DNA of 64,000 nt from Ehretia macrophylla. Its lineage: Eukaryota > Streptophyta > Magnoliopsida > Boraginales > Ehretiaceae. The position numbers and the translations under genes are program-made. Positions within the stretch are counted from its first letter, which is position 1, and every line of letters begins with the position of its first letter. Below, piece after piece: positions 3,898 to 26,850 of the stretch. The stretch spans positions 33,547,732 to 33,611,731 of the forward strand of contig CM075775.1 of NCBI GenBank assembly GCA_037974665.1, written 5' to 3'. The notes under the pieces are model-generated. The model had not been told where the DNA came from, searched no databases, and saw only the letters and a program-made list of their open reading frames with translations.

Positions 3898-6220
3898 TGA
3901 AAGGATCGTGCTTACAAGAGGTGAATCACAACATATAGTGAGCTAGGTGGAAGCAAAAACTTGATTTCAAAAATTTTTCAGCAACACATATCATTTGTAT
4001 TCACCATAATACTTTATGTCTAGTCCATGTAATCAACATATCTACTACATATATAAACATATATATGAATGAACAAGAGTTATCAAGGTATACCTCTTGA
4101 AGATCTAGCCAAAGGAATGAAGAAGCACCACAAGAATGATGACCAAGTCTTTCACACGTGCAAAAGGTCTAGTTCGTCCACACGAGCATCCAAGAGCTTC
4201 TTCTCCACAAACCAAATCTTTGTACTAGCCATTTAGGTGGGTTGATGAGCTTACACAAGTGTTGAAAGCATGAGAAAAATTCTGCCCAAGCTCTCTAGCT
4301 ATGGCTGAAAATATGAGAGAGAAAATAGAGAGTGAAGAGAAAAATTAATGTGCAGAATTTTTCCACTCATCTTTTGTTATATCTCTCTTCATATTTTCTA
4401 TGCATATATTTTTCCTATGCAAACTTTGTGTCTTGTGCATTACATACATATATGTCTCCAATGCATCCTAGTGTCTTGTGTATTCCCAACATATATGTCT
4501 CCAATGCATCTATGTGTCTTGTGCAACAATATAATACAAATATATTGGATAGTGAAAAATTATGAAATTATCCATTATTCTTGCCACAATAAATCCTAGC
4601 CATAGATCTAGTCAAGATCAAATATTGGCCTTAGATTATAATTAATCATAATCAATATTAGATTAATTAATTGGAAACTAACTTTTCATATTTATACTTT
4701 AGCCCCAATACTTTCAATAGTTACACTTTTGGCCCATTACGTTTTAATGACCAAACACAATAACGTTAACTCTTTAACGTTTTCAAACTTATTGTAATGT
4801 GTAGGCATATAATATATATATATATGTATATATATATGTATATATATATGTATATATATGTATATATATTTTGTGTTGTATTCGTTAGTGGAACAATATG
4901 TAATTCTCTACTAACTTGCCAATTAAATCTTAGTCATGGAATTCAAATAAGATCAAATCTTGGCTCTTGGATTATAATTAATCCTAATCAATATTAGATT
5001 AATCAATTGCAAACTAACTTTCCATATTTATACTTTTGCCCCAACACCTTCAATAATTATACTTTTGGTCCATTACTACTTAATGACCAAATATAACAAC
5101 GTTAACTCTTTAACGTTTCCAAACTCATTATAAGCTCATTATAGAAACTTTATCCATGATACTCAAACGTGTGTGACTCTCTAGATTCACCACCGTATAG
5201 CAATGAGGGACGATTAAACACTTTCAATCTATTCCGAAAATGTCTCCGTCATTCTCGGAATACCCTCACGTTCTAGAGTGACGCCTAGTAAGAGATCAAG
5301 ACAAAATATACGGTAATGAAGTCAATTTCTTGTTAATCTATTTATAGTCGCCGATTATCGTGCAATCTAATCCTTCCATTAATTGTCCCGTCAAGTAAGA
5401 ACCATGATACGATTAAGTTTATAAACTCGATACTATGCATAAATCTAATTGGTGTAATGAGATATAACACATGGAAAACCCTTTCTCCATCATTAATACC
5501 TTGGCCAAGGATTTCCTCATTAAATAACCAAGCTTAGATTGCATAGGCCCTCGTCTAACGCCGGAGGTTAATGGATCCTCTCTTGACCACTACCTGTCAA
5601 TCACTATACCAGACGAATGAAACTGCGAGAGGACGTATCTCATCTCGTTTGTCGAAACAATCATTGTCCAAACGCTAGAATCAAATCCTAATACATATGA
5701 CAGCCGTAATGTCTCAAGTCTAAGGATTACATGCACAATCGCAACGAATAACAAATTATTAATCCAAAGTCATGTAATTTGTTATTCACGTCACATTCAA
5801 TGATCTATTCAACTAATAGTCATCCACATGTTTGTTAGTCGCATCGCTATGCTGTTATGGCACGTGGCTCACCATCCTTTATCATTAACATCCCTATGTT
5901 AATCAAAGGTAACAACACATGTGATAATCCGTAATTGATTATTAAAGTCCCGATCAAATAATCAGAGGATTATGAATATTTTAAGTATTTTTATCATATT
6001 AAGGAAATACGCCAACATATTCTAAACACTTTTAGAATACATTTCTCTAATGAAAATACTATGGACTCATTCATACACGTAACGAAGGAGAATATGAATG
6101 TCATAATTATGTCAATATGAAAACAGACATATAGACACGAATGCCATAATATATAAGTAAATGTCAAAATGCCCCAATATATGTCATCCAAATATATAGC
6201 ATTAGGGCATATCTCTAACA
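3898..6220 (-). repeat. 5' LTR of the left-edge retrotransposon
   Basis: Reads TG...CA on the minus strand, bounded on the inner side by the primer-binding site. At about 2.3 kb it is long. It contains an imperfect direct duplication (about 4600-4790 and 4935-5130), a TATG/TA microsatellite (about 4812-4868), and a short repeat around 4440-4520. The bases outside the right end (6221-6225, ggtag) would be the target-site duplication. Confidence 0.6.
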
Positions 6221-7516
6221 GGTAGGGGATGGGGGTATAGAACACGGGGGTAGAGCAGGTGTTGGAAAGACTTTTTAGGTGACTGGACGGGGCATAGGGA
6301 TAAGTGCACCCCTCCCCCCAGACTCACACCATTGCCATTCTTAGAATATATTAGACCAACTCCAACAACAACCATATTTGTTTCCTTACCCTACATGTAG
6401 GGAAAGAGATAGTGCAAATGAGCTCCAACAGTTTCCCTAGGTGATCCCCTAAACTTTAAGGGATCCTTAAACTCATTTTCAATGTCTCTACATTTGGAGA
6501 ACAATACACAATCCCTATCCCATCTTCTATTATGAAATGTAGACAAGCTGTTAGAGTAAAACTAAAATGAAGAATTGATTAAATATAAAAAAATTGTTGG
6601 GTTTAAACTTAAATACAAAATCCCTAAATATTGTAAAAATACTTCAATCCCTACATATAAGGAAATTTTTTTTAAAAAAAGGTGTTAAAGTTTACCTAAC
6701 AATGCTCTTCTTTGTAAGAATCAAGGTATGAGTAGTCTATTTTGAAGAACAGAAATTATTAATTTGTGCAAAATAGTTTATAAAACACTTGATTTCTTTG
6801 TTATGACATCCAAAAACGGATACTGAATGAGATTGTCCAAATATTTAAACTTATTATGATCTTATACATGGAATAGACCGCCACCAATTCATCAGCATTT
6901 GAAAAGCCTGACGATGCTGAGCAGATGTGAATTCGAAGATATATATATAGATAACAATTATCTCAGTCTCAAATCTGCATTGTGGGTGGTTTAGGTTCTA
7001 GGAACTCGAATTTGAACACCTTCGTCACATTACACAGCTAAGGTAAAAAGATTTGGACAGTCTAGCCTCATTAAATCTCCTTTCAATTTGCTTTTCTTCA
7101 TTGTTGGTTATTTTGTTTATTTATTCCCGTTAAAAGCATGTGGGGTGTCACCCTTACATGGCGTTATCTCATTGGTTCCCGACAGACAGATGAAATAATT
7201 TTCCCTAGCTTTAGGACCTAAATTTAAGTTTAATGCCTCATCCTAATACTCAACTGTAAAAGCAAAGGGTAATCAACAGAGATATACTGATTAAAAACGT
7301 CTTTTAAGTCGAACTTCATATTAAAGATCATTCAAGTACATTCTCCATGTGTGGGCAAAAATAAGCAAGCACAAAATGATTTTTACACAAACATATATTG
7401 AAACACCTCAACCAATGCAACAGCAGCAAAAACAACCACAACAACAACAACAACAAAAAAAAAAAAAAGCGAACACCAATATAATACAAATAGATCCATA
7501 GCCCTTCGAACCGCGT
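6221..7516. other. Intergenic, downstream of SYP71
   Basis: No gene seen. 6221-6345 is G-rich and ends with a CCATTGCCATTC-type sequence, resembling the G-rich repeat near 21.5 kb. 6350-6560 contains CTCCAACA motifs seen in plant MITEs, but I cannot fix the ends. 7427-7468 is a CAA/poly-A run. The SYP71 3' UTR must occupy part of 7100-7516; an AATAAA-like signal on the minus strand near 7115 is a possible poly(A) signal. Confidence 0.5.
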
Positions 7517-10500
7517 TTACTTCTTCAGTACGCTGCAAGATTAAGAACAAATCGAGAATTATAACTGTGCCTAGGCTTTTGAAAAAAAGGCAGTATAACT
7601 GAGTACTTAACTGTTGGAACTGTTTCTATCGTGTTCCAGAACTTTTGGAATAAGAGGGAAAGGGTAGTTGAGGAATTCGCTAAAGTTTTGAGAGAGAACT
7701 CACTTGTATAAATAAGCTGCAATTCCAAGAATTATACATAGCAAAATGATGTCGATGCAGAAGTTTCGACTAGATCTCAGCTGCAAAGAAACCAAATCCA
7801 TCAACACAAAACGAAAATGCTACAGATCCATCAACACAAACTATAGAACTTCAGTTACCTGGTTAACAGTGTCCTTGAGCCTGACGTTAGTATTCTTGAG
7901 GTCAGATGTGGCTTTGTCTACCTGTGACAAGCAAAAAAGAAGCCATTAGCTTAACCTGTTGCTGCTTCAGAAACTACGACAAGCCAGGCCAAAAAATCCA
8001 ACCTTAGTGTCAATTTCATCCATCAGCGGAACTTGCCTGTCGAATTCCTGCATGCATCGCATGATATGTATACTTAGTCCATGGACAATGGAAAGCATTA
8101 GACAGAAGGCAGAAGACAGCAAACCTCATTCATATCATGGGCCATGTTTTTAAGTGTATCCAAACCTTCTGCTATAACATCCAGACCTTCGTCCTGTGTG
8201 AAGGTTAAATTCGTTAAATTCATCCATGAACGAAAAATTCAGCAGCACACAAAAAGTAGAGCTTGCATCAATATAAAGAAGATGTACTATTCCCAAAAAG
8301 CACATGCCTGTCTCATTTTCCGCATTTCATATTCTTGCCTGAACTGACTTGACTCTTCAGTTTGCTGGAAATATTCATTGTCAAACCGTCCATCTGGAGT
8401 TCAAGCAGAACATGCAAGTGAACCACATATCTAACTGAATCCCAACAGATGTGACATTAATTAAATAACTGGTCAAATTAATGTGCCTCTGCAGTCAAAC
8501 AATCACCTGAATCAAATTTTATTTCTGAACGAGGAGCTGAAGATCCCCAAGCTCCAGATGGTTTGGGGGGAGCTGCTGCACCATCTGGTATAGCTTGAAT
8601 TCTATCAGGCAATGCAAGGACCAAATCATTACGGGCAGTAAGTTCCTCTGTTGAAAGCCCTTTAACCTGATGCAGAAAGTGTCACCACTCTAGCAGGTGA
8701 ACCATACAAGTCACAAAAGTGCTTGTTTACCACAACTGACAATTAAAGCATGCAACCAGAAACCATCGTAAGATAAATCAGCATCCATCAGATGATTAAT
8801 ATATGCCTCATGACAACTGCTCTGTAGTGTAACTGACACTCAAGCTGACGTCTTATGGTTTAAGCCTAGCACAGTTGAATATGTTAAACTTGTCCCCAAG
8901 TGGAAAACAGTTTCCCTTTTCTTACTTTTCCTCTTTTTTATGCCCTTTCCCCAACCAAAACCCCCCCCCCCCCCCCCCCCCCCCCCCACCCTTTTCCTTT
9001 TCTCTCTTTTCTGGGGAAGAAGAATCTTCTAATAGTTCTTTTCACTGGGTAGCAGAATGCGAGGAAATGCATCATTGGCACGTAGAGGGAGGAGGGAGAG
9101 AGAGAGTAGAAGATCATTTAGTGTTTTACACAACTCGTCTCCCTACTTAATGATGGAGGCATCAACTTACACACAACCAACGGGGGAAGATGTCTGGACC
9201 CAGAATTTTGTAGTTGAAAGGGCAAAAGCAGATATAAGTCAAGACACAGGTAATAATTGGGAAAAAGAGAAAGGAAAAAAGAATAATAATTATTGTAAGG
9301 TAGGGATGCTACTTTTGCTTCTCTGAGGTTTAGCTTTCAGCAACAAAATAGTGCACCTAACAATTTAACAATTACTCCCAAATCTGCAACAATAAATTCC
9401 CTTAATTAGGCTTAAACATCTAAGCCCATGAAGAGATAACTTAATTCTTCTTGTGGTCTCATGGATCAACTAAGAAAATCAGATGTATCCCCCCTCTAGG
9501 AGAAGCACATATAAATTAATGAAGAAGTAGTCTGAATGCCCATGTGGTAAGAAAAGAATCTTAAGATTATCTCTTAGGTAATGAGCAAAAGCACTGAATG
9601 CATTTACCCTCTCATACTAACCAGTCCATAACTTAGGTTGAGACATCTGTGCCAGGTGAGTCTCAGTTCTATCTTTTAAAGTAACAATTATAATTGCTAA
9701 GTTTTTCTAATAAGCAAAGTCAAAATAAACAAAAGTTTAAAGTAGGGCTAATAATACTAGTAAGATGTAATACACCACATGGTAAATCATGAAAGGAGAA
9801 CTAGACATTGAATGTAGGTCAGAGGAAGTATTCTAATAAGTAATGCGAGGTTAAACAACAAAACCCCTCAAATTATTAGGAACGACTTGCTTCTTAGTGC
9901 TCCGTTGGACAGGGACTTAATGCAATTTGGTGAGGAAAATGAAAAGGAACTGACAAAGAAATCCTCTTGTAATTGATTCTAATAGAAAACAAGGTAAATG
10001 AAACTATGGGGAAACCCATTGTTAGACCTGTATAGTTCTCAGAAGAAAAAGAAAAGATTTCCTAGAAACAAAAGGGTTAGGAAATTTTTAAACAAGGGAA
10101 GAATTCCCAATGGGCTCAAATAGCGTGGGACACCCCTCATTTCAAAATGCATGTTCTCAGAATGCCATCTTCTTCTTCTCTTGTAAATTGGCGTCCAAAC
10201 AAAATGAAAAGCTACCCTCCTTTTTCCTTTTTTTCTTTTCCCTCGCCATATCCAAGGATCCAAAAAAAAGGGTATGAAACCTAGCAGTACTCAACTCAGC
10301 AGCTAACATTACAACACTAATGCTATGTATCACAGCACAAAGCATCACCCATTCGTCACCACTGACGCGAATGCCTACTTGGCATGCCAATTAGCAAGAA
10401 ATTAAGAAAGACGCTGTCTAACTAGCATGCCAAATAGGCATACACATCAGCAGTGAAGAACCACTGATGCTTTCTTTGATGATACATAGCATACCTCCTG

Positions 10501-11309
10501 TTACATAAATTCCGCAAAAACAAACTTAACACTTAGACAGCATGCCGTTTGTGCATGTTCTTCACTCTTCAACATCACTATTTTCACTTCCTAATACTCC
10601 TCTTTTCAACACACATAACCAATAATCAACGGCAAACAAATCAGTTTCAAATATATCAATAGAAAAAATTCAGTGGCTTCTACATCTTCACATACAGTGC
10701 AAATGCCTCAATATGCAATTATTTAGTTATAACTCATATCTAAAATAATTATCTTCATATCCAAAATAAGTGCATTTTCTCCGATAAAATCCATAAAGAT
10801 CATACTTTTTACTTCAATTAAGTAAAATAAAATGCATGATCGTGCTCCAAAAAGAGAAAATCTTTTGATAAAATCAACGGAAATTAGCAAAATAAATAAA
10901 TAAAACAAACCTTCTTCACAGCTAATCTCTGCAATTTGGGAACTTCCTCGAGCAACCTCGCCTTCGTTCTTCGAATCTCCGCGTTGATCGCTACAGCCGA
11001 TGCCCTACTCTTCTCACTCTTTGCTGTCTCCGCTTTCTAATAATTCAAAATCCAATTTCTCAGAAAAATAAAATAAAAATTCAAAATTCAAAAATTCAAA
11101 AGAAAAACCCTATAATTGTGGTGATTTAAGCCGAAAAAAATTAGAAATTGGACCTGAAGAGCGGCTTCGATGTCGGACTCGACGGCGGCGTAGAGGCGAG
11201 CGAAGGCGTCGTCGCCGGAGACATTGGAATCCTTCTGCTTTTCGACGTCGTATTTGTCGTATTTCTTGCAGATCGTTTCGACGCGAGTCAATATGTCGAT
11301 CACACTCAT
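7517..11309 (-). CDS. SYP71: SYP71-type Qc-SNARE (syntaxin of plants 7 family)
   Basis: A membrane-anchored Qc-SNARE that contributes one helix to the four-helix bundle driving membrane fusion at the ER and plasma membrane. Coding exons on the minus strand are 11154-11309, 10911-11036, 8507-8666, 8308-8393, 8125-8193, 8003-8047, 7859-7921, 7704-7780 and 7517-7532. They total 798 nt and encode 265 residues; Arabidopsis SYP71 is of similar length. The N-terminus MSVIDILTRVETICKKYD is diagnostic of the family. The SNARE motif covers about residues 170-235, with the zero-layer glutamine near 204 in the segment FDRQVPLMDEID. A C-terminal anchor spans about 243-260, followed by a short NVLKK tail. 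The eighth exon splices inside an Asn codon, and reading through would stop early after YLYK. The fourth intron (8194-8307) starts GC rather than GT on the coding strand. The 5' UTR is pyrimidine-rich. The gene looks intact. Confidence 0.95.
8961..8987. repeat. Run of 27 C in SYP71 intron 2
   Basis: An uninterrupted C tract on the plus strand, so a G tract in the SYP71 pre-mRNA. Such tracts are length-variable and prone to sequencing error. The 91-residue plus-strand frame through it is proline-rich nonsense. Confidence 0.9.
10320..10492 (-). repeat. Imperfect 79-bp inverted repeat in SYP71 intron 2, candidate hairpin RNA
   Basis: Arms 10320-10398 and 10414-10492 pair without gaps around a 15-nt loop. 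Perfect blocks include ATGCTATGTATCA, AAAGCATCA and TTGGCATGC. By hand alignment the mismatches in the first 75 positions include 11 transitions. Ten of these become G:U wobbles if the RNA is read from the minus strand, the strand on which SYP71 is transcribed; only one does on the plus strand. The size and shape resemble a plant MIRNA foldback. A small foldback MITE is the main alternative. No clear target-site duplication was seen. Confidence 0.6.
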
Positions 11310-11384
11310 CTTTCTGATTCACAAAGAGAGAGAGGAGAGAGAAAGAGAAAAAAACAGTAGAGAGAGAGCCTGTAACAATGCTTA

Positions 11385-11700
11385 GGGTCGTTCTCCTGTG
11401 CGGGGTGCGGGGAGTACGGGGTAAACATACTTTTTTCTTTTTTTTTTATTTAATGCTACTGTGTAATTACAAATTTATCCTAACTGTATTTAATGGTTGT
11501 AGGACCCACATAGCATTTGACAGATTTGATGTTCAATATTTTTTAAAACATTAATTTTATTTTAATGCGTAATTATTTTATTACCCCTAGATTCGTTAAT
11601 ATCATTGGGACCCACATTGCACTAATAATACCAGCATATAAAGGGTTAAAATGTCTATTGTGCCCTTAAAAATGGTCAATTACTAAATTGTCCTTGACAC
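11385..11700. repeat. MITE-like sequence just upstream of SYP71
   Basis: Begins TTAGGGTCGTTCTCC and runs into a G-rich stretch (gcggggtgcggggagtacgg). The following AT-rich body has repeated phrases such as gggacccaca and tgtctattgtgccc. The sequence at 32140-32397 has the same organisation in inverted orientation (CGGGGTGCGGGATACG on the minus strand). I read these as two members of one terminal-inverted-repeat family. The far end of this copy was not found. It starts only about 75 bp from the SYP71 start codon. Confidence 0.4.
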
Positions 11701-12460
11701 TTAAAAAAATTTTGAAAACGTGAAATTACTTTTACACCCTTATTTGTATTCACACACACAAAAAAAAAAAAATACTTACCTCTCCCCTCTTCATCGTCTT
11801 TTTCACTGCAATTGTTCCCATAAGCTTCTCAGACACACTTTCCATTGGCACGACAACTTTCTCCCTAAACTTTATCTCTTTATTTTCTTCAAGAAAAAAA
11901 CTTCATCTTCTTATCTTCTTTAACCATCAGTTCAACGTCTTCGTCTCATCGTCAAGCATCATCGTTGTCGAGCATCCCCATCACCGTCGTGGAGCTTCAG
12001 GCTCGTCATTTCACGAAACAAATGTGAGTTTATTAGTATCATTCAACATTCAAGAGACGGAGAAATTAAAATAGATATATGTAGCTTTTTGTTCAATGTT
12101 CTTCACAACCCCCTAAAATTTATCACTTTATCCTCTTTCATTTCCTTAAATCACTCTCTCCTTCAGTCTCCTTCATCTCAGGTGCGTGTTTGTGTGTGTT
12201 TATCCAAAACTCTTTCACAATTTTTCTCAAAGATTCCCTTTTTTTTTTTTTTTGGAAAACCTCAATTTTTTTTATTAGGAAATTATTAGTTTTCTTGTAG
12301 GTTTCTTCAACCCCTCTAAGCTTAGATTTGCACTTGTATTGAGTGTTGATAGATCTGATTTAAATTAAAAAATACCCACTTTTTATTTTTTTGACATTTG
12401 TGTAGTTTTGGCGTAAATATTAGATTTTAACTAGATTTAATATGCTCTTTTGGTGTGTTT
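11701..12460. other. Intergenic, no gene recognised
   Basis: AT-rich, with long T and A runs (11760-11771, 12238-12255). A pyrimidine-rich stretch resembles a plant 5' leader but no coding exon follows that I recognise. Confidence 0.4.
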
Positions 12461-12686
12461 CTGTGCAGAAGCATTTTGTCCAAGTCTATCTTCATAATAT
12501 GTGAAGTGCAGATTCTCATTCATAACATCCCACACGATAATATCGCCAGAATATCGCGAGACAACTGAACCAACACGCCGGGCAACTTCTTTTTCTAGTT
12601 CCCTGACAGGTAATGCTCTAACCCCATTCTTGATTCATTCTCGGATTATCTCACAAAATGTTGTGACCTCTGATGAAAATCGGGTT
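12461..12686 (-). pseudogene. GH10 endo-1,4-beta-xylanase fragment
   Basis: Minus-strand translation gives NPIFIRGHNIL, a stop, DNPRMNQEW, a one-base frameshift in a G run, then VRALPVRELEKEVARR and SRYSGDIIVWDVMNENLHF, followed by YYEDRLGQNASA. This matches the middle of plant GH10 xylanases, which degrade xylan in the cell wall. The WDVxNE motif carrying the acid/base glutamate is present. The stop replaces the tryptophan usual in the family, and with the frameshift it makes this a dead fragment. No other part of a GH10 gene was seen nearby. Confidence 0.8.
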
Positions 12687-12989
12687 ATAGATCCATAGGG
12701 CTTGAGAATTCAAGCTTTGGTTGAATAATCTTGAATTTTTGTGGTATTTATTTATTTATGGATATTTGGTGAAATTCTTGGTTAAATATCATATTTTTTA
12801 TGGATTTGATCAGCTTTTTGGGTATGTTTCTGTGACCCTTTTTGGTTGAATATCCAAAGAGCTTGACAATTCAAGTTTTTGATGAAAAAGCTTGAAGCTT
12901 TGTGATTTTATTGTGGTTGTTGAAGGGTTGATAGAAGAGAAAAAAAAGAAGAGAGAAAATGTTGAATTTTTGGAAGCCTTTTTTGATTC

Positions 12990-13190
12990 ATGGGTAATCG
13001 TTGTGTTGTGCCATTTATTTCTGATGAGAAGAAAAATAAGAAAGATAAGCCAAAACACTTTTATATTGATTATGGTGGTAAAGTAACATATGGTAATGGA
13101 GGATCCAAGTCATATGTAATAGATAATCCAATTGGGAATGAAATTGAGTAGAGGTATGAGCTCGGGCGTGGTAAATTTAGGGTTACATAT
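12990..13190 (+). pseudogene. CDPK N-terminal fragment, copy 1
   Basis: Starts MGNRCVVPFISDEKKNKK (MGN is the N-myristoylation start usual in calcium-dependent protein kinases). It continues through DKPKHFYIDYGG and SYVIDNPIGNEIE to a stop, then RYELGRGKFRVTY, the degenerate start of the kinase glycine loop. Intact CPK7/8/32-type kinases have an extra ELGR-like segment before the GRGEFG loop; this copy and copy 2 both lack it, so they share a damaged ancestor. About 240 bp upstream is also shared with copy 2. Confidence 0.8.
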
Positions 13191-13687
13191 AACAATGCAC
13201 TTCTAATCTTCCACTGGATGATGTTATCTTTGGTTTAAAAATATTCTATTTTTCAGTCCAGTCGACCTAAAAGAACCTAATATACTCGAAACATAATTCA
13301 TATTTTATACTTAATTAACATATTTGATCCTAAACAATTTTCAAGATTGCTTACTTTTTGATATTGGGAATTCAAATCATAACAAAGTTGAGAACAATGA
13401 AATGTATTTGCAAGTTTTGATTGACTTTTCGTTTCTACTTCTTTTTGCCTGCTAGTGCTTTTATGCCAAATCATCAAGTTATCATTAATCATCCATTACA
13501 TAATTGTGTACTATGCTAACTTAAATTAGCTGTGAATTCTGCAAGATATGTGTATCATGATTAGTTTTCTAAAGTTTTTCTTGTTTTGGGATTTTTGTAG
13601 CTTTTGTTTTTTAAGGCTCTTCTAAAATCGTGGTTCATCTTATTTTGTGAATGAATACCTTACATCCACATTACTAATTACTTAAAG

Positions 13688-13826
13688 GTGGCAGCCAAAA
13701 CCATCTGACTCCTCTAATCAAGATGGATTAAAGGGAATTTACCGAGTAGATGTTGATATTCGAGCTGAGGATTGGGCGTGCATCACCAATTTCTATGATG
13801 TTCTAATTTTCAACACTGGTCATTGG
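13688..13826 (+). pseudogene. TBL/DUF231 (trichome birefringence-like) exon fragment
   Basis: The frame reads WQPKPSDSSNQDGLKGIYR then VDVDIRAEDWACITNFYD and VLIFNTGHW, ending at a GT donor. TBL proteins are Golgi polysaccharide O-acetyltransferases, and the YRVDVD...NTGHW segment is characteristic. Splice-site-like AG and GT flank it, so this is one exon taken with its intron edges. Neither the upstream GDS-containing exons nor the downstream DxxH exon is present. Confidence 0.75.
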
Positions 13827-14619
13827 TAATTTCTGATCTTTTTAGCTTCCATTTGCTAAATTGTAAGAAAATTAAATTTGACATTAGGTTTTTGTTCTGC
13901 GTATTTGATATCCATAATGCCCGATTTTGAACAATATGAAGTCAGCTTAACACTATTCTATAAAAAAATGCTCATGGTATCCACAGTTTTGTGAGTGAAA
14001 CGTTATTTTTATGCCATGACGTTTATTCTTCCTTGGAGCTAGTGGAGATTTGGTCTATTAGATGGCGTTCTAATGTTGTGTTAATTAGTAAATTTCTGGT
14101 CTTGATGCTGGTAGATTGTTTCTGTCATCTTTCTCGTTCAATATTACAATATTGTTTTAATAACCAAAAAAAAAAAACAATATTGTTTTGATAGCAATTA
14201 GCAATTGAAATGAAAGAAGATTAATTTCTTATGCTGGCTAACTAATTATGCTTCTCATGGGTTAAATAGAGTCCATGAAATTGATATACATTGCTTGTCT
14301 ATATGAGAGGGATTGGACTCAGGTATCTACTATAAAGGAGGAGAAGAGTGTTTTTAATTGTTTGCCTGCTAAAGGATTTGATATTGTGTTGATAAGTTGT
14401 AATTCCATCTTAGTGCAGGGTGGGGGCAGGGAAGGGGGAACAGCATCTGTAAGGAGGAAGAGACACGATTGTCTTACATTGGAAAATCTGGGGCAGGACT
14501 GCTTTTGACTGGCATAGAGTTTTTAGTTTTTACATATTCATTTATGACAACTTCTTTTGTCATGTTATATCCTGATGATACTGTCTCTTTTGTTTTGTCT
14601 ACCTGATCTACATTTTTCA

Positions 14620-15076
14620 ACATTCTTGGATTATTATGATATCCCATACAAAGTTCTGGAAGTGAATCCGATCAGCAAAAAGGAAATCAAATGGTCTGAT
14701 TACAATAAAGTTCCTACACTGATGGTTGATGGTGATTGGTGAATAGATGGTTGATTCATCAGATAAGATTTTAGCATTTTATTTTACATTGCTTGACAAG
14801 TTTGAAAATATGTATCGTGTTACTATGGAAATTCTGTGGCCATTAAAGTAATTAAGAGCTTATTTCTCATAACAAGTAATTAAGAGCTTAATTTATTGTT
14901 CTTCTTTTCCTCTTTTTTTTCTGGGAAGAGGTTTTACTGTTTTTTGTAGATTAACCTTTTAATCTTTTGGTGCAATATGTTTGCAGCTATAATTGACAAA
15001 TTGTCTAAAAAAATTGCCCTGGGGCCTCAGCTCGTTCTACTTCAAAAGATGATGATGAAGAGAAAAAGTGGCGTGG
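14620..15076 (+). pseudogene. Prostaglandin E synthase 2-like fragment (two exons)
   Basis: The first piece (about 14620-14742) reads TFLDYYDIPYKVLEVNP then ISKKEIKWSDYNKVPTLMVDG, the glutaredoxin-like domain of plant membrane-associated PGES2-like proteins. After a break and two stop codons the expected MVDSSDKIL continues in another frame (from 14746). A second exon (14988-15076), with AG and GT splice edges, gives IIDKLSKKI, then after a frameshift KDDDEEKKWRG. This matches the linker before the GST-like domain. Frame breaks make it non-functional. Confidence 0.75.
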
Positions 15077-15796
15077 GTAAGATCTTTTGCCTTTGTTTTA
15101 CTAATTCAGGACTTGGCGAATATTGTCTTGATTAAAGTTAAAAATTAGAAAGTAAGAACGTTCTAGATACTTGAGAAAGCTCATAAGAAATCAAAAATAA
15201 GAATGTTGGAGATACTTAAGAAAGATTATAAGAAATCAAACAATGGAGAGATGATGGCATATCTATTGACGATTCATTAGATTTTTGTTTCTTACACTGA
15301 TATTTTATCATTCCTCTACAAGCATCTAATTATGATTGCCACAAACCCAAGAGTGATGATTATGTGACTATGCAAACAACCATTTTTTATCTCATTCCAT
15401 GGAAATGACAGTTCTTTGTATCATGTATTGTTAAATTTACACAACAGCACCCACAAAGAAACATTAACATCTATAATGATGTCATATTTACAATGAACTA
15501 ATATATTTTACATGATCTATGGTTCTTTTCTTTTTTTTTTTTTCATTATTGATTTATGCTGGGTGAGTAACTTATCCCAGAAAAGGAAAAAAGAAGAATC
15601 TGATATACATGCCATTGGATATGAAAATTTATATCTTCATTTAGAGTCAATAGATGATCTATTCTTTTTAGCACTCGCCTCTCTACTGATAAAGTTGAGT
15701 CAGAAAGAAGATTTCTATTCTAAAGAATCAGTATATTTTCTATACAAAAGAAACATGTTTATTAGAATGTTAACCACTGTTGGTAAAGTAAAGAAA

Positions 15797-15894
15797 ATTG
15801 TTATTTATCTCTAATATTGATACTTGGAACATTGTTGTTTACCTTTAATATTGATACTTGGAACATTGTTGTTTACCTCTAATATTGATACTTG
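15797..15894. repeat. Three tandem 34-bp units
   Basis: Units start at 15797, 15831 and 15865 and share TAATATTGATACTTGG with a few substitutions. Confidence 0.85.
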
Positions 15895-16181
15895 GGTTTG
15901 GATTGGTAGTGCAGAGTGCCATCCCTGAGGGCTTTTATTTTTGGATATTTGGTGTAGTTCTTGATTAAAGATCAGATTTTTTCTAGATTTGATCAGCTTT
16001 TGGGGTATGTTTTTGTGACCATTTTTGGTTGAATATCCAGAAAGCTTGACAATTCACGCTTTTGGTGAAAAAGCTTGCAGCTTTGTGTTTTATTGTGTGG
16101 TTGTTTAATGGTTGATAGAGGATAAAAAATAAAAAATAAAATAAGAGAAAATGTTAAATTTTTGGAAGCTTTTTTTGAATC

Positions 16182-16446
16182 ATGGGTAATCGTTATGATG
16201 TACCATTTTACTTCTGATGAGAAGAAAAATAAGATAGATAAACCAAAACACTTTTCTATTGATTATGGTGGTAAAGTAACATATGGTAATGGTGGATCGA
16301 AGTCATATGTATTAGATAATCCAACTGGGCATGAAATTGAGAAGAGGTATGAGCTCGGGCGTGGTGAATTTGGGGTTACATACTTGTGTACTGATAAAAC
16401 AAATGGGAAAAGTTTCCTTTTAAATTTGGGGTCAACTGTGACTTAG
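16182..16446 (+). pseudogene. CDPK N-terminal fragment, copy 2
   Basis: Begins MGNRYDVPFYF then hits a frameshift. In the next frame it continues SDEKKNKIDKPKHFSIDYGG, then SYVLDNPTGHEIEKRYELGR and GEFGVTYLCTDKTNGK, the start of a CDPK kinase domain, before losing similarity. It is better preserved than copy 1. About 240 bp of upstream sequence (from about 15940) is shared with copy 1 (from about 12750), so the duplicated unit was at least 430 bp. Confidence 0.8.
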
Positions 16447-16934
16447 GCCACAGTAATGGATTTTCTTCTATCAAAGCTGATCAATGTCCTTCGATCTATG
16501 TCTTATCATGCTAGGTAATATTTGTATGTTGGTCTGGAGCTCTTTTTTCATTTGAATTTGGGCAAACTCGAAGCTTCATTGATAATTATGGCCTAGCCTG
16601 TAGATTTTTTTTCACATGCTTGTCGACGTCAATTAATCGGCAAACCTTAGTGTATGTTTCATTATATGAAATTTCAAATTATGTTTATCTCATTTGTGGT
16701 GTGTTAGGAAGTCATTTTATATCATAAGGTGTAATATTTTCAAACTCTACTTTAGGCTAGTAAATTGGTTTCCTACTTAATGCTTCACTTGGTAACAATG
16801 TGATTATGTTTCCATTTTTCCTATCTTTCCTGTTCGAGTAATTGTAGACAAATTGATGCAGTTACTGCAAGGTATCAAAATTTCAATTCATTCTTTGGCA
16901 TTTCTTTTTCTGCTTGAATTGTTTGAAATAATTC

Positions 16935-19900
16935 TGTGACGCCCGGGAATTTCATCATATATTTTAAATAACTGTTGCATAAACTACTTGTGCATCTTAC
17001 GTGCATTTCTTATCTTATTTAATTGTTTATTTCTGAGGTACTATTCATAAGAAAATTTATTGTCTCAGATATGCGATTCAATATTTTTCATAGGTCACAT
17101 GACATTTAAAAAGAGTCGGAATATGGTAGTTTTGAACTTTAGGGATCGGGAGTATGTGTTTGAAAAATATTTTACTGCTTCATATGAATAGTGTTATGTA
17201 TGTAAAAACATTGTTTTAAATTAGTTAGCATTACAATTGGAATTAAGCCCATTTGATCAAGACTTTTCTTAGTATTTGACATAACAAAACATAACTTACA
17301 CATATATTTACACAATATAACACCATTTATGCATACTACTCAAGAAAACAAAAGCCAAAATTACAAAAATACCCCCCCAAAAATCGTGAACCCTAGGAGA
17401 GGAAAAGGAAAAAAATTTCTTCAACTTTGAGCAAGAATTGGTCCTTTGGCTTGGCCTAGGAGGAGATTGCAGCATTAGGGGGCATCTACAACTTGTCTTC
17501 ATCTTAAATATTGTGAGGGAATTACATATTTCATAATTTTAAAGTTGATGCATATATATTGAATTTCTTGTCTTGTTGAATTTAGCTATTTTGCTTGTTA
17601 TAAATGCTTGTTATATGATCTTTGAAGCCTATAGAACTCTCTTTTGGAGCTTGGTTGCAATTGTAATGGTTTGGTTTTGAGAATCAAAGTTGTAGGAGAA
17701 GATGAATAGTGCAGTGAATAGTAAAATTCAAAAATTTAATGTTTTTGATTTATTTTGTTAATTAGATTGAATTGAGGCTTCCCTTAGGTGCTTTAGACAT
17801 TAGTGAAACTAGAAAAAGGCTCACGTGAGGTTGAATTGGCCGAAAATGAGTTAAAATGCAAAATTTGTTAACTTTAAAAAGGGAATTTTTCACGTAATGC
17901 AATCCGGGCACGTTTGAGCTTTAAATTAGGTATCCTTGGGGGCATGGAAGCACTTATGGTGCTTTCGTTGCGTGGAATTGGGGTCCGGATAGGGTAGTCG
18001 TAGTTAAAACCCACTTGGTGCCTTTCCGAGCTTTTGCCTCCAAAGCGGGTTTTCATGGCTTTAATAGGTGACTTTTGATATCCTTAGGGATGTAGTATGG
18101 TGGGTTTATAGAATCGGAGTTTTGAATTTCGTATGAAAGTAGAATTATCTAGTTGAAAAATGGAACTTTGGAACAAATGTTTGAATTTGTCATGTTTGAT
18201 AGCTAGATGACCTTAGACATGTTAGGAAGCCTCTAAAATGTATTTATGACGTGGTTTGGTTAATCGAATTAGGTAACTGTAGTTCAAATCTCTTAAGGAG
18301 CTTTTTGGTATTTTTGTATAATCATGCTTGGAAATGTGAGTTCATGGCATTTAGGTGTCTCAAAATGTGGCTAAATGGGATTGGTAAAGTTAGTTTTGAA
18401 GTTTCATATCGTACGTGAAGTTTAGAACCTAATTTGTAAGCAATTGGAAAAGAGTTTTGTTAGAATTTATATGAATTGGTTGAACTTGTTGTTTAGTTAG
18501 TTAATTGGACTACTTAATTGATATATTTGATTTTTAATTGAGTTATATATGATGTATTGAGTAAATAAGCATGATAATGACTTTTAGAACATGTTATAGT
18601 TGAATTATATTTAAGTATTAAAGTAGTTGTCTTGATTGGAAGTTTAACTTGATATTCCTTGTGGTATAAACGAAGTTAAGTTAGTTAGAAAGTTTAACTT
18701 GTTAGATTGTAACGTAGCTAATGCCCTTGCAAGACTAAGGAAATGCTTTAGAGTCATTTGTGTGATTTCTTGGGCTATGTGACAATATGATATAAATGTG
18801 ATTATATATAACTTCTATTGTTGTGGATTGAGTTAAGCAAAAGTTAAATTAAGTTAGAAATTAATATAGATAATTGCTAAAGTGTTAAACTCATATGAAC
18901 ACGCTAGGGTACATATCCAAGCTAAATCGAGGAGGTTCGGGTAATCAAAGCTATTTTCTTGCATATTTAGTTGTATCCAAGGTGAAGGAGTCTTTATCTC
19001 TTTTGTGCGTCTTAACTTAATTTATTGTTTCTAGATTGTATTCATTAGTAATTGATAAAGTTTATATGCGTTATTTACTTGTTATCTTGTGTCTTTTCAT
19101 GTTATCTGTGATTAACTGCGAGGACGGCCTACTTTGTCATTCCTCTTATGTGATATTTGGTATACTTGGCTCTCGTGGTATTGACCCGGGGTTCCGCAAC
19201 CTTTTCGAACATGGTAGCGTCGAGAAACACGGGTGGCGTCGGGCTTGACGTACTCCCTCGACTACCATGGTGCCTATTCCCTTCTCGCTGAGGCATACTC
19301 CACTACCCAGAGGCGTGGTTCACCTGCTGGGCATAGACCTATCTCAAGAGAAAGGGTCATAAGATCGGGATACATCCGGAGTATCCCAACTTGTTGGAGT
19401 AAGGGTTTGCCGGCAATTGCGTGAAGTTCGTGGTTTGTAGCTTGTGATTGAAGACAAAGTGGAACCGTATCCTTTTAATGTGGTTAACTACTTGCTATTT
19501 GATCTTGTTGTTTATGTTATATATATATATATATATGATTTCTTGTATCTGCATATCATTTTGCACGCCCCAGTATGTTGCATCACCTCCCTCGCTGGGC
19601 AACATTGTTGCTCACTCCTCATTTAAACGTGTTTCAGGAGAAGCTGAGAAGAATCCCCAGTCGATAGCAGTAGAGGAAGAAGAAGAAGTATATGTATATC
19701 AGAATCTTTGATTCCTGTGTGATAAGGTTGATTATGTGTGCAGTTTGTTTGAAGTTGTTGGTTGTTGTGCTTTTGAGACCTTGTGATCTTCTGTATAGTT
19801 GGTGAATGTAGTATCTTGTAATCCTATGTGATGGATGACTAAGTTAGATGGCATGTAATAATGAATCATAGTTTACTTTTCTTATTGCATGCTTGGGTGT

Positions 19901-20242
19901 TTGTTAACTTGATAAGAAACCTTGGTTATAGTCATCTCCAACTACTTATAGTTAAAATTAATTTTGTCTTGCATGCTTGTGTGCTATAAGTAGACTTTGT
20001 TGTTCCACGGCTCGGATGGCCTTGAGGAGCTGGTTGGCTTTATGAATCTTAAAAGCTAGGATGTATGAATGGTTGATTGTGATTCAAGACTTGTATGTGA
20101 CTGTTGACAGGTTTCTAGATAGACCTATATATAGGGGAAACTCCTTCCGTTTTTCCTAAAATTTTGTGCCCGGGTTTGGATTTGGGTTGAGTATAGTTTG
20201 GTTAATAGAAGTCCCGGTTCCGTGAGGGATTGGGGCGTTACA
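16935..20242. mobile_element. Solo LTR (3.3 kb) with 5-bp target-site duplication
   Basis: Starts TGTGACGCCC and ends GGGCGTTACA (10-bp inverted ends, one mismatch), with TG...CA termini. The flanking 5 bp are identical, AATTC at 16930-16934 and 20243-20247. The body has no long reading frame, no primer-binding site and no internal duplicate. The TG...CA ends with a 5-bp duplication indicate an LTR left after recombination of a retrotransposon; the large size suggests a Ty3/gypsy lineage. A TA run lies at about 19518-19536. It sits in an intron of the decayed CDPK fragment, between copy 2 and the kinase exons. Confidence 0.75.
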
Positions 20243-20300
20243 AATTCACCTAGTAAACTTTCTTTAACATGTGAATTAACTCTCTGTTGTTGTGTTGTAG

Positions 20301-20599
20301 ATATGCCATAAACATGGCGGGATGCATTGGGATCTCAAAGAAAACTTTTTTATTTGCAAACAAGAAGGAAACTGCAGCATTGAAGACTGTTCATTTTGGG
20401 TTGTCGGTATTTTTTAAACCTAGTAATTCCTCTTTTACAACTATTAGCCTATCTTATTTTACTATTTTTCTTATTGGCTAATCCTTTTGTAATTTTGTAG
20501 GTCAAAGATTTAATGAAAATTGTAAGAAGCCCTTACTACATGGCACCTCCTAAAAAGAAACTATGTCCAGAAGTTGATGTCTGGAGTGCTGGAGTAATT
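20301..20599 (+). pseudogene. CDPK kinase-domain exons, decayed
   Basis: Exon 20301-20422 reads ICHKHGGMHWDLK, then ENF, a one-base insertion in a T run, LFANKKETAALKTV and HFGLSVFFKP. The HRD motif is HWD, the proline of the KPEN motif is lost, and the DFG aspartate is histidine. Exon 20501-20599 reads QRFNEIVRSPYYMAP then PKKKLCPEVDVWSAGVI, and similarity stops abruptly. Splice edges are still visible. Catalytic residues are destroyed, so no kinase could be made. This is probably the continuation of copy 2, separated from it by the solo LTR. Confidence 0.85.
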
Positions 20600-21488
20600 A
20601 GCTTACCAACCCCGCCCTTCCCCTTCCACCCCGAATGGAAACATAACTTGAATTTAATCCTTTTTGTGATGCATATATGTTGTTAATGCCACTGATAGAA
20701 ATAGTATATACTTATATCTGAAATCGAGTTACACGAACTCTTGAAGAAACCTTCATTGAGCGGGATTTCTTTGCTTGTCCTTGGAAACAAAATTGAAAAG
20801 TAAGAAGCCCTTACAAAGTAAGCATTGGTGGATTGACAAGGATAAATTGGTGATGCAAGAGAATTTCATAACATTGACAAGGATTCTCTTCTTTTTTGGT
20901 CAATAGATTCACATAATATTAGTGTACCATTAGCAGTTGCAATCTTGATACATAAGTACAACATTCGAAAGTATAATGTTCACTAGGAAATAGTCTTATG
21001 ATAAATACTAGAAAATTGTTACAATCACATCTTTGTCCCAACTTTTGACTAAAAACAAAAAGACAACTAGTTTTTTATGCATAAAATTACAAAGTTAGTT
21101 TTGGAATTAATTTCCCAATTATAATCACATTTTTGTCCCAGTTGAAGAGAAAAAGCTATAAGTTATTTATGCATGGAGTGTCGATAACTTCAACTTGTCA
21201 CAAACAAAACATAGGCGTCTAGTGAGGATTGAACTAATAAGCTCATCACTTGGTCCCATGCTATGCTTTATTTGAACCAAGTTTCAAGCAACTTCTCCAA
21301 TGTTAATAGTAATGAGTAAAAATTATGGTTAAAATGCATTACCTAGGGAAATCAAAATTGAAGATCCATTTAACAAAATTCAATTGCAAATGAAAATTTA
21401 ATTTCCGCTATAACTATATTCAAGTAGATAAATAAAAAATAAAAAATAAAACCAAGTTCTCACAATTATGAAACTCAAGTACTCACAA
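20600..21488. other. Intergenic, no gene
   Basis: AT-rich. Contains a loose direct repeat (about 21020-21160, tcacatctttgtccca). Nothing coding recognised. Confidence 0.4.
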
Positions 21489-22400
21489 TTAAGGATGACA
21501 ATGGGGACAGGGATTGCAAGTACCTGCCCCGCCCCTGCCCCAAATGGAGTGGGGATTAAGGCGGGAAATGGGAAATGGGGCGGGGGATGGGGATTAACTT
21601 TTAATCCCTACACGGGGCCTGGCCGGGGCGCGGGGATAAGCATTTCCCACCCCGCATACATAGATAATTATTTTTATTATTTTAGTATTATATATGTATT
21701 AAAATTATACATATAAAAATATAAAAAAATAACATTAAACAAAGTATTATAAAATAGATAAGAAAAAATAGATTATTTGAAAGGATTTTATAATTATTCT
21801 TAAAACCACTGCATGCCATAACTTGAGATTTGCTATCATTTGACGTAAATATCTCAATTTTACTATTGATCATAGTGAATTAATATATTTATTAGTTATT
21901 TCAGTTGCACTTCAAAAAGCTTCCAATAACATAACTAAAGATGAATTTTAAAGAATCGCAACTAATATTATATGTAACATGCGATAAGAAAAAAATTACA
22001 ATAATCAATGCAATCTCACTAACACAAAGAAATATCCTTTTACAATTATAGTTCTCATACGCAATGGTTAAGTAAAAATTTATATTAAATACTTGAGACT
22101 CAATTACTATAATATTATTTTTACTATTTAACTCCAAGAATAATTAATATTAGATTTATATTTATCATTAGTATAACTTTAATTTAGATTTTAAAGTTCC
22201 ATGATTTAAACTAACTTTAATTCTTAAAGTTTAAAAAGAATAATAAAAACTCAGTGGGTAATCCACATTCCCCATGGGGATTCGGGGGCGGGGACGGGGA
22301 CGGGGACGGGGGCGGGGACGGGGTGAGGGATGGGGGTGTAGATTGCGGGGATAGGGCGGGGGATGGGGGGACATTTCGAGTGGCAAGGCAGGGCATGGGG
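21489..22400. repeat. G-rich repeat element, possible hAT-type non-autonomous transposon
   Basis: Starts aggatgacaatggggacagg, a start typical of a common plant repeat family with GGGACGGGGAT runs. It has C/G-rich blocks at 21520-21650 and 22255-22400 (gggacggggacggggacggg) around an AT-rich core. A clean second terminus and a target duplication were not found, so the limits are approximate. Confidence 0.4.
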
Positions 22401-22755
22401 ATAGCTCCTTGTTAATCCTTTTTTTTTTTATTATCAGAGATACCTGAGTAAATCCAATACTAACTGACTGACCAACTCCCACCAAATAACCATAATAGTA
22501 GTCTTTGATCACAATTTAAAAAACCACAGCCATATTATACCAGCAAATTTTCTGGAAAATAATTATTGAATCACCATTATAGTATCCGTTATATTTATTT
22601 TTTTGCTTATTTACCCGAAGAAATAAACTTCATTGAAAATAAAATTTGGATATTTGCTCTGTTAATGCCTTTTGATAAATTCATGTCATCATAATCACAA
22701 AAAGAACCTATGTTATCTCTCTCCTAGAGAAAACTTGCTTTACTGCATTGATTTG

Positions 22756-24352
22756 TGATCGCATCGTTTTGCGCTAAAAAAGACTAAGGTTAAATGATTG
22801 GAAATATTGCTTACCTTGAATTACCTCTAGCTGTGGCAAGTAGAGGGTCGATCCACGAAGATTGAATTAACGGTTTCAAGTTAAGAATTTAGTTTATAAT
22901 TTGTTTGACTACCTCCCGTCACGGATAAGTTTAATTGACTCCAAAAGTCCAAAAGTACGGTAAATTAAGTCCAAGAAAAGTTCAAAATGTCCATAAAAGA
23001 TCCAAAGGTACGGTACTAAGCTAACATAATTTAATCCAGAAGTGGTTAATTCAATTTAGCAGGTCCTTGATTTGGAATGATAAATTCAATCAAAGTATTT
23101 AAGTGTAAAATTATAGATTTAAATTATAAGAATAAATCATTCAAAAAAATATGGCTACAAGCTCCCACTTTTGAAGTTAGCCTTAGATATGTAAGTAATA
23201 AGACTAATTAATTAACAAAACTGAATATGTTGGTACAACCTAACAATATATAACCTCTCAATTAATATTCTTACTTACGTACCCCGGAAGTGTTGGTACA
23301 ACCTAACTAATTCCGTCTGAAGTAGTCACGTATTGCCATTGGTTTACAAAACTGGGCATATATGTATTCTTGATTAATCATATCATAACTACAAGTATAC
23401 GTATAATTAATAGATAATACTAAGTAATTAAAGAATACGAGACTTGAATTAATCTAAATCTAAATATATACAAAAATATCCTCACTTATTTATCATTCCA
23501 AAAATAAGGGTCTAAAATGCCATAATTAGATTTACAAAACGGAAATCGAAATCAAGAATAAAAGTTATCAAATTTAAGCACATCTTGATTTAGCCGGCTC
23601 GATTTCTCCGAAGCTATGGCGTTAATCCATAAGCCCGACCCTTAATTTAGGACCCTAACTAAACTAAACTAACCTACTCCTAAGATAAAATATGAAGAGA
23701 ACTTATTATATACAAAGAAAAAGATGAAAAATCGCTTCTGCCCACTAGAGAGGCAGAAACTTGGCTAAGATGAGAAAAATTGGTGCCCTTTTGTTGCTGC
23801 AAAATCGCGACTTTTATAGGCAAAAATTCAGGGAGGTGCTCGAGCGCCTGAAGGGGGTGCTCGAGCGCCCTTCTGTACTTTTGAATTTTTTATTTGTTCT
23901 ATCGTTTTCAATCTGTACTCTGCCGCTCAATTGTTGGTCTTTTTCAAAAAAGTGGTGCTCGAGTACGGAAAAGGGGCGTTCAAGCTCCCTTCTGGCTGTG
24001 GTAGGTGAACTTTGACTCCGAACTTTGACTTTGACCAGCTCAGTTGACTTTGACCGTTGACCAAAAAGTTGGCCAGGTCTATTTCAAGATTTTTCAACGT
24101 CCTGAATCCGTTTTCGCACTTGGTTTGGCCAAATTCAATCTCGAATTGTTCGTTTTGAAGTTGTTCTACTATTTTCCTTTAGTGTTACGCTGAATATTCT
24201 CTCCAAATGTTGGTTTTTATGGCCGTTTTTTCTCTTTCTTCTTTAAAACCTATATTGCACTAAATTTGTGTAAAATATACAACTAAACTTGAAATAATAA
24301 TGCAATATACACGATTTAAAGGGTTAAAGTTACTAAAAATACGGATTTATCA
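22756..24352 (-). repeat. 3' LTR of the non-coding retrotransposon
   Basis: Minus-strand TG...CA ends (TGATAAATCCG...GCGATCA). Contains a TATA box (minus CTATAAAAG near 23815), a GCTCGAGCGCC pair at 23838 and 23859, and six TTGAC cores at 24009-24062. Confidence 0.85.
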
Positions 24353-26826
24353 ACCTTCTTAAACCCATTCTTTGCTTGTCCTCAAGTAAAGGCATAAATT
24401 ACTTCATAGATTCAAAAATATTAAATTTAAGCAGTCAATGTATTCATACAGATATATTTTATAAAATACAAGATTAATAGTGAGTTTGTCTTCCAAACAA
24501 TTTCACCCCAAGAAATCATTTTATATCTAGAAGAAATGAAACTAACTTAATTACAAAAAAATCATTTGAGCCTTTTTAAGCACTTGTAACTTAATTAAGA
24601 GGTAAGAAAATTAATCACGCAAAATTTGTAAAATTGAAAATATTTTCTATGGATGGTCATGAAATGTTAAAACTCAACTACCTTCCAAATCATATAATAC
24701 TCCCTTAGATTTTTTTATATATTTTTTATTATGAATAAATGACTCGAATGGTAGATGTTGGTTGATTCAAAGACTTTCTTGAATTATTGCCTTTCTTTGG
24801 TTGAATTATGTTTGGTGAAAGAAGGCTTGTCTAGCAAGATTTGTATTAATAGTTTTTTCATAACAAAAATGGTTAGAAGAAAGTATTTTGTTATGAGTTT
24901 CTTTTCTGCCTCTTTTTGCTGAATCAACACTTTTGATATTTAAATGATATTGAGTGAGTCATCTAAATATTTTCTTCTTTTTTTTTTCAAAGGAGTATAC
25001 CAATCTAGAAAAATAAGTTAAATTTTAATAAAACATAACATTTTCACATTGAAAACACCTCAATTTAATCATTTTTTGATAATTAATCAAAAATTTATAA
25101 TTGAATTATGTGACGCTGTTGAGATGTAATAATAGTTAACAAGGTTTCAAAAAAAATTAGATACAAACTCAACTCTTAGCGGCTAATCATTTTTCCATTT
25201 CAAATTCACAATTAATTCAAATATTTTATCACAATCTAACCATATTTCTACAATTAACCACTCAAATTTAATTATTATGAATAAATAAAGCAAGAAAATT
25301 TAAAAAGTTTGAAAAAATTTTAATAGGTGGTATCGACTATTTTCTCCTACCTCGTCAAACCCGAACCTTACATTGCCCTAAATGTAAGAAAGTGATGCAA
25401 TGCATTGCAAATTAAAACAAATAGATACAACCTGTTAAACATTCAAAGCATTGTTCCTCAAATGGTTCTGAAATAATATTTGTCATTAAAAGCTTCAAGC
25501 ACCAACGTTAGTTATGAGGATAAAAACAAAAGTGATACAAAACGAAATTTAAAACTCAATGATATATACAAATTGGTTTCGCAAGGACGAAAATTTTTTT
25601 TAAATAGTTTTTTTTTTAATTTATAAAAGAGAAAAATTTAACATACCAAATTAAAATATACACAATAAATCTCCTTTAATGGTTTGCTAACAAATGCATT
25701 GGAGGAGACTCAGAATATATACACTAATGAATGTATAACCATAACAGTTGCTGAAAATTATGTAGTGAGGGTTGAAATCATACCAGATTACTGAAGTCGT
25801 TAGAAGACCTTAGTGGTAAGATTAACTAAAGACATTCTCGAGACATATCAACAATTCAACCCATAGATCTAATATTCAGAAGAATTAAATCCAATTTTTT
25901 TGTTTTAATTTTTTTTTTTTTGTTTTTTTTGTGCTACTGCCGCCAGGGCTTAAGTTATAAGTCCCGACTGCAGTTTGGCGCTCGAGCGCCTTCAAGGCAT
26001 GCTCGAGCGCCTTGCTGAAAACCTGTTTCCCTTTTTTTTGTTTTTTTTTTCAAAATTATAACATTAATGTTAAAAAGGGAAATAAAAGAAAAGTTGTAAT
26101 CTTACTATATATACATATAGATATATACATATACAAATATAAATACTATAAATACATAAACCATAAAAACAAACCACACTATTTTATTAAACATAAAGAC
26201 AATACATAAGAGGAAATGAAAAAATACAACAACATAAGACTATCTCTTAAACTTGGAAATACATGATTGACTTCAATCATTTCTAATATACCTATAATCC
26301 CACTTGATAAAGAGATAAATAAGAAAAAGGTAAAGGATGAAAATGCTTGCAAAATAGTACACGACCATGGAAAATTGAGCAGGCGTAAGAGTTCTGAACA
26401 TCATTGTGTTTAATGCAGCAAAATAGAGAAATGAAAGAAAAAATGTTAGAGAGAGAGAGAAGAAAGAGGCGGTGAGAATGAATGAAGAGAAGAATAAGGG
26501 AAACAGGGTTTTAAAACCCGTATGTTATGGCTAACGGCGCTCGAGCAGGGGATCAGGCACGCTTGAACGTGGTTTTCCAGACTTTTTTTTTTTTGGAAAG
26601 GTAAACAACAAACATTCTAGAAAATAAATAAAAATCTTTTTAAATTTTTTTTTTTACCCCTTTTTTGTTTTAAATTTTTTTATTTACAAAAAGAAGAAAA
26701 TAAATACAAGAAATTAAAACAACATAGTATATACAAAACTAAAAATAATAATTATATATACAAAGTTACAAGGATAAAATTATATACAATAAACTAAACT
26801 CTTACATGAAAAAAATTGAATGCTAG

Positions 26827-26844
26827 TCCCCGACAACGGAGCCA
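26827..26844 (-). other. Primer-binding site, tRNA-Asp type
   Basis: TGGCTCCGTTGTCGGGGA on the minus strand, six bases inside the 5' LTR. It differs by two bases from the tRNA-Asp-complementary TGGCGCCGTTGCCGGGGA known in Athila-like elements. Confidence 0.75.
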
Positions 26845-26850
26845 AATTTT

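Follow-up and report, generated by a model that had tools for sequence, protein, structure and literature searches.

A decayed composite of fragments from four unrelated genes in the genome of Ehretia macrophylla

The DNA segment analyzed here is a 64,000 bp stretch of the Ehretia macrophylla genome (GenBank assembly GCA_037974665.1, contig CM075775.1, positions 33,547,732 to 33,611,731 of the forward strand), called the window hereafter and numbered from its first base. The region from 12.4 to 20.6 kb of the window contains decayed fragments of a GH10 xylanase gene, a CDPK gene, a TBL/PC-esterase gene and a PGES2-like gene. The GH10 fragment lies in the minus strand and the CDPK, TBL and PGES2 fragments in the plus strand. 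An initial annotation had proposed fragments of four unrelated genes at about these places, an assignment confirmed by matches to PDB and Pfam entries, by protein relatives and by the order of the CDPK exons. The simplest reading of the CDPK part is that it would represent the 5′ half of a single pseudogene, kept in its native order and orientation, with foreign pieces inside. We tentatively favor, at a little under even confidence, the view that these pieces entered the CDPK copy by template-switching repair of double-strand breaks, which fits the locus slightly better than transposon capture, and that the outcome is a dead composite upstream of a SYP71-like gene. The locus belongs to a known class of plant genome debris and is, as it stands, ordinary pseudogene debris.

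The kinase moiety of the CDPK pseudogene is found in two plus-strand exons whose assignment is based on PDB matches and splice junctions. Exon 2 (20301–20422) covers the region from the catalytic loop to the DFG motif and is decayed and frameshifted; exon 3 (20501–20599), also supported by its translation, is truncated and carries one frameshift. They are separated by an intron of 78 bp. When the two exons are joined, the best PDB chain is “Calcium-dependent protein kinase 3” (9vhu; E = 8.3e-16). Taken individually, exon 3 matches Pfam Pkinase under the cut-off (E = 0.0063) and exon 2 has no Pfam match. Exon 1, located upstream, matches weakly on its own (9vhu, E = 0.11; Pkinase, E = 0.2). Its amino-terminus is presumably CDPK-like, of the CPK7/8/32 type, and exon 1 is assigned to the CDPK because of this feature and of its order with the kinase exons.

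The 5′ leader of the CDPK is present three times in the plus strand. Copy 1 is degenerate and split in two modules, A (12381–12465) and B (12683–12752), and the gap between them is occupied by the GH10 piece. Copy 2 (12751–13189) comprises the leader and the start of exon 1, with an ATG at 12990 and an in-frame stop. Copy 3 (15934–16446), defined by alignment and translation, comprises the leader and exon 1, with its ATG at 16182. The initial annotation had counted the CDPK amino-terminus twice and the kinase exons once; the leader occurs three times rather than two. Copies 2 and 3 (12751–13189 and 15934–16382) are 88% identical over 450 alignment columns, and their leaders differ by a distance K of 0.122 (213 matches, 27 mismatches). 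Module A is 76.7% identical to 15933–16017 (E = 1e-10) and 72.7% to 12747–12834 (E = 5e-8), its alignment scores being 44 and 39 compared to maxima of 28 and 26 in 500 shuffles each. Module B is 78.6% identical to 12844–12912, and its alignments score 34 and 39 compared to shuffle maxima of 23 and 19 (500 shuffles each). The divergence of copy 1 (73–79% identity) exceeds that between copies 2 and 3, so that rearrangement probably took place at two or more different times.

Copies 1 and 2 are arranged in tandem and copies 2 and 3 flank a segment of 2.7 kb with the TBL and PGES2 pieces. Beyond the end of copy 2, copy 3 runs on as gene-like sequence, followed downstream in the same strand by exons 2 and 3; we take this continuation to be CDPK-like, the weak 9vhu match of exon 1 lending it some support. 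Within exon 1, copies 2 and 3 differ by 15 substitutions, of which 5, 6 and 4 affect codon positions one, two and three (67, 67 and 66 sites), a small sample that shows no sign of coding constraint. A 34-bp tandem repeat present in three copies (15793–15895) ends 38 bp before leader copy 3.

The foreign pieces were identified as follows. The GH10 piece is a xylanase exon fragment (12464–12676, minus strand) with one stop codon and one frameshift. Its 74-residue reading (12676 to 12464, joined over the frameshift and with an X at the stop) matches PDB xylanase 7d88 (E = 6.4e-8) over 68 of the 74 residues, including the motifs RGH and WDV.NE. A 58-residue piece taken alone still matches in PDB (E = 5.3e-4) and in Pfam Glyco_hydro_10 (PF00331; E = 3.4e-4, under the curated cut-off). 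The candidate search for relatives of this exon returned none.

The TBL/PC-esterase piece is an internal exon (13688–13825, plus strand) recognized by its protein relatives. All 24 candidates are listed at E values up to 10; they range from 7.2e-17 to 0.13, with 23 at 6.1e-6 or below, and the best row is 74% identical across 100% of the query. PF13839 is carried by three of the 24. The direct Pfam match of the exon is weak (E = 0.0018, under the cut-off) and no match was found in PDB. Nine candidates were compared: the likeness begins in them at R-W-[QHK]-P, the residues upstream from the acceptor edge differ in all nine, and seven stop at G-H-W, the same donor edge, an agreement obtained with a query that had itself been cut at both exon edges. 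The window DNA shows AG and GT at the two edges. The piece is considered to be one whole exon with an intron on either side because the boundaries in the relatives coincide with this AG and GT.

The PGES2-like piece has two exons in the plus strand. Exon a (14623–14762) is frameshifted near its end and its left edge is not fixed; it contains the best stretch of the match to PGES2 in PDB (1z9h; E = 2.3e-8). The Pfam match is to GST_N_3 (E = 0.0073, under the cut-off). Exon b (14987–15076), delimited by its translation and by an acceptor (TTTGCAG) and a donor (GTAAGA), is presumably the next part of a plant PGES2 gene. The 224-bp intron between them retains its acceptor and has AT instead of GT at the donor site. 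The spacers 13190–13687, 13826–14622, 15077–15933 and 16447–16934 could be additional pieces or intron sequence of the captured genes.

The TBL, PGES2 and CDPK pieces thus still have introns or intron edges and were therefore copied as DNA; a processed, mRNA-derived pseudogene origin was rejected for the three because of the retained introns. The GH10 piece, which comprises one exon stretch, is uninformative in this respect. The DNA-level copying advanced in the initial annotation holds for three of the four fragments, and its description of them as partly spliced-looking was wrong.

A large part of the region has a separate origin. The segment 16935–20242 is a solo long terminal repeat (LTR) of 3308 bp that begins with TGTGACGCCC and ends with GGGCGTTACA, has TG...CA ends, and is bracketed by a five-base target-site duplication, AATTC, at 16930–16934 and 20243–20247. 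Five identical bases at two given sites are expected by chance with a probability of 0.0016. There is no second copy of the LTR within the window. Its ends, a duplication within the 4–6 bp range and the presence of a single LTR are the features by which solo LTRs are recognized. The interval 12461–20599 had been described as an island of fragments; the fragments are present, and 16935–20242, which makes up 3308 of its 8139 bases (~41%), was rejected as a member of the set. CDPK exon 2 starts 53 bp past the right copy of the target duplication. The LTR separates the remnants of exons 1 and 2, and the retrotransposon is therefore considered to have entered the former CDPK intron.

Repair is favored because the foreign pieces lie within one gene, flanked by duplicated leader sequence, and no transposon ends were found. 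The fragments, their order, the splice edges in three of four, the leader repeats and the solo LTR with its target duplication are observed; we infer break repair, a direction of copying, an order of events and a lack of function. The CDPK 5′ half (leader, exon 1 and exons 2–3) would be the backbone that received foreign pieces by DNA-level copying. A GH10 piece of ~210 bp would have been inserted between modules A and B of copy 1; a run of ~2.7 kb with the TBL and PGES2 pieces would have been copied into the backbone. Repair would then have re-entered the CDPK upstream from the break, leaving on each side a copy of a ~440-bp segment made up of leader and exon 1 sequence. A retrotransposon would have inserted in the intron ahead of exon 2 and have been reduced later to a solo LTR. 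Tandem duplications at insertions are reportedly, by its title, the subject of Vaughn and Bennetzen (2014), which is cited by PMC6097286. Placement of gene fragments by break repair is described in plants, including grasses, in the portions of PMC3503983 and PMC3445842 that deal with it. The three leader copies start near the same T-rich boundary (12381, 12750 and 15933) and each foreign run adjoins one copy. That the leader has been a recurrent landing point for template-switching repair, seeding several fragment captures without a transposon, is nevertheless very improbable.

The main competing explanation is that a decayed Pack-type transposon or a Helitron captured the pieces and moved them as a unit, its ends having decayed or been lost. 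We regard it as a real possibility of somewhat lower probability than break repair. Mutator-like elements (MULEs) make target duplications of 8–11 bp and hAT elements of 8 bp. Terminal inverted repeats were looked for next to exact repeats of 8–11 bp (left side 11000–16900, right side 13000–23000) with at least 18 of 30 inverted inner matches, a scan insensitive to heavily decayed ends or to target duplications shorter than 8 bp. It gave one match (11049/22451; 18/30 bases, 8-bp repeat), which is AT-rich and chance-like. Inverted alignments of three boundary pairs reached 31, 26 and 28, within the range of 60 shuffles (maxima 33, 34 and 35). Pack-MULE and other Pack-TYPE elements hold captured genic DNA between their ends; genic DNA is present here, and the scans found no terminal inverted repeats with target duplication to bound it. 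The Helitron scan, which required a stem of at least 6 bp, half of it G/C, and CTRR with the T before which Helitrons insert (CTRRT), gave no site on either strand of the 12 kb from 11000 to 23000 (40 shuffles average 1.65); degenerate ends would escape it. These scans agree with the initial annotation in finding neither a Helitron hairpin/CTRR end nor a convincing inverted repeat, and nothing found supports the capture by a transposon that it had proposed. A GC-rich segment (11385–11425) and a C-rich one (20605–20640), paired by eye as candidate terminal repeats, were dropped without a test of their own, the best alignment of these regions being AT-rich and located elsewhere. At the ends of the TBL/PGES2 run (13190/15933, 80-base windows) there is no exact shared repeat of 6–11 bp. 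Rfam searched at gathering thresholds gave no match in the window. The native order of the CDPK pieces and the leader duplicated around the TBL/PGES2 run speak against capture. In its favor, retained introns and mixed strands fit Pack-type or Helitron capture as well, and the locus is decayed (leader copies 2 and 3 differ by a K of ~0.12), so that transposon ends could have been lost. Pack-type elements can carry genic DNA from several loci, according to the passages on this subject in PMC8903248 and in the review PMC13317346.

Several points weigh against break repair. Alignments in inverted orientation of four chosen boundary pairs scored 30.0 (a score reached in 4/300 shuffles), 16.0 (139/300), 25.0 (1/300) and 31.0 (34/300). 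Two marginal inverted repeats emerged, 13221–13256 with 15720–15756 (equalled in 4/300 shuffles) and, near the edges of the island, 12296–12310 with 20741–20755 (14/15 bases, 1/300 shuffles); no duplication flanks them when the flanks are inspected by eye, four pairs were tried, and they constitute weak evidence for transposon ends. At the GH10 junctions (12466/12682) the longest common word is 4 bp; one such word, TGTG, occurs at 12462 in the left junction and again at 12662 close to the right one, and might be a short target duplication around the GH10 piece. The ~440-bp flanking duplication could come from unequal exchange instead. Fillers at rice transposon excisions are short in the data given by PMC4423477 (average 13 bp, range 1–123 bp), as are those of the maize examples in PMC2686159 (1–131 bp), sizes that count against repair because they are far below the 210 bp or 2.7 kb found here. 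DNA transposons are moreover called the commoner captors in the relevant part of PMC3503983.

A third explanation dispenses with any event common to the GH10, TBL and PGES2 pieces, and invokes unrelated old insertions and local duplications accumulated beside a CDPK pseudogene. The greater divergence of leader copy 1 and the separate event that left the solo LTR are consistent with it. We consider it unlikely: TBL and PGES2 pieces less than 1 kb apart, on one strand and between copies of one CDPK segment, make coincidence less economical.

Other features of the window surround the composite. A minus-strand gene beside it, with its first exon from ~11308 downwards, is presumably SYP71-like from its translation; this exon has no Pfam match. 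A MITE-like (miniature inverted-repeat transposable element) inverted repeat at 10320–10492 is apparently within an intron of this gene; its arms, of 75 nt each, lie 23 nt apart and are 76% complementary. GC-rich elements with G-runs are found at about 21491–22420 and at 6220–6345, with an end AAG(G/A)ATG(A/G)CAATGG that is similar by eye; they are perhaps one MITE or hAT-like family. The C-rich stretch 20605–20640, directly after the truncated CDPK exon, is similar to them. An LTR-type element, apparently in the minus strand, extends from 22756 to 28461. Its terminal repeats are ~1.6 kb each and its target duplication is ATTTG, both by eye; the repeats are 91.4% alike over 1259 columns compared (up to 24000). 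It has no stop-to-stop frame of at least 100 amino acids, and is a non-autonomous, LARD-like (large retrotransposon derivative) element. Broken minus-strand frames at 48509–49759 resemble, by eye, gag and integrase pieces of a Ty3/gypsy retrotransposon. An open frame at 44678–45712 encodes an E3 ligase (ZFP1/HIP1-like) with ten listed relatives among the 7997 candidates sharing most words; six rows are asterids (Penstemon, Coffea, Cinchona, Nyssa, Cornus and Davidia; 43–51% identical), five of them being the top five, so that by this measure the host is probably an asterid without close kinship to any of the six. It includes an in-frame 27-bp repeat of ~9.3 copies (44943–45193), and a single unit is found at that place in the four relatives compared (Penstemon, Coffea, Nyssa and Cornus). 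This looks like a lineage-specific expansion of nine residues.

The locus is a readable example of unrelated gene pieces that were joined at the DNA level and show no visible transposon ends. Some gene mixtures annotated as transposon-captured could have another origin if break repair is true. Among known systems, the segment 16935–20242 resembles the solo LTR of an LTR retrotransposon in its TG...CA ends, 5-bp target duplication and absence of an internal region, and no difference was seen. Helitrons hold mixtures of fragments from several genes, introns included, a likeness to the present locus, whereas no hairpin and CTRRT 3′ end was found here. Pack-TYPE transposons (Pack-MULE, Pack-CACTA and others), as treated in the pertinent part of PMC8903248, share with it DNA-level fragments of at least one gene, but the scans of this locus detected no terminal inverted repeats accompanied by target duplications. 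Compared to the fillers reported in the relevant sections of PMC2686159 and PMC4423477, the pieces found here are long. With the plant break-repair fragments (filler DNA or synthesis-dependent strand annealing) dealt with in portions of PMC3503983, PMC3445842 and PMC2686159, the locus has in common intron-bearing genomic pieces of mosaic origin, no transposon ends found, and foreign pieces joined in the middle of a gene.

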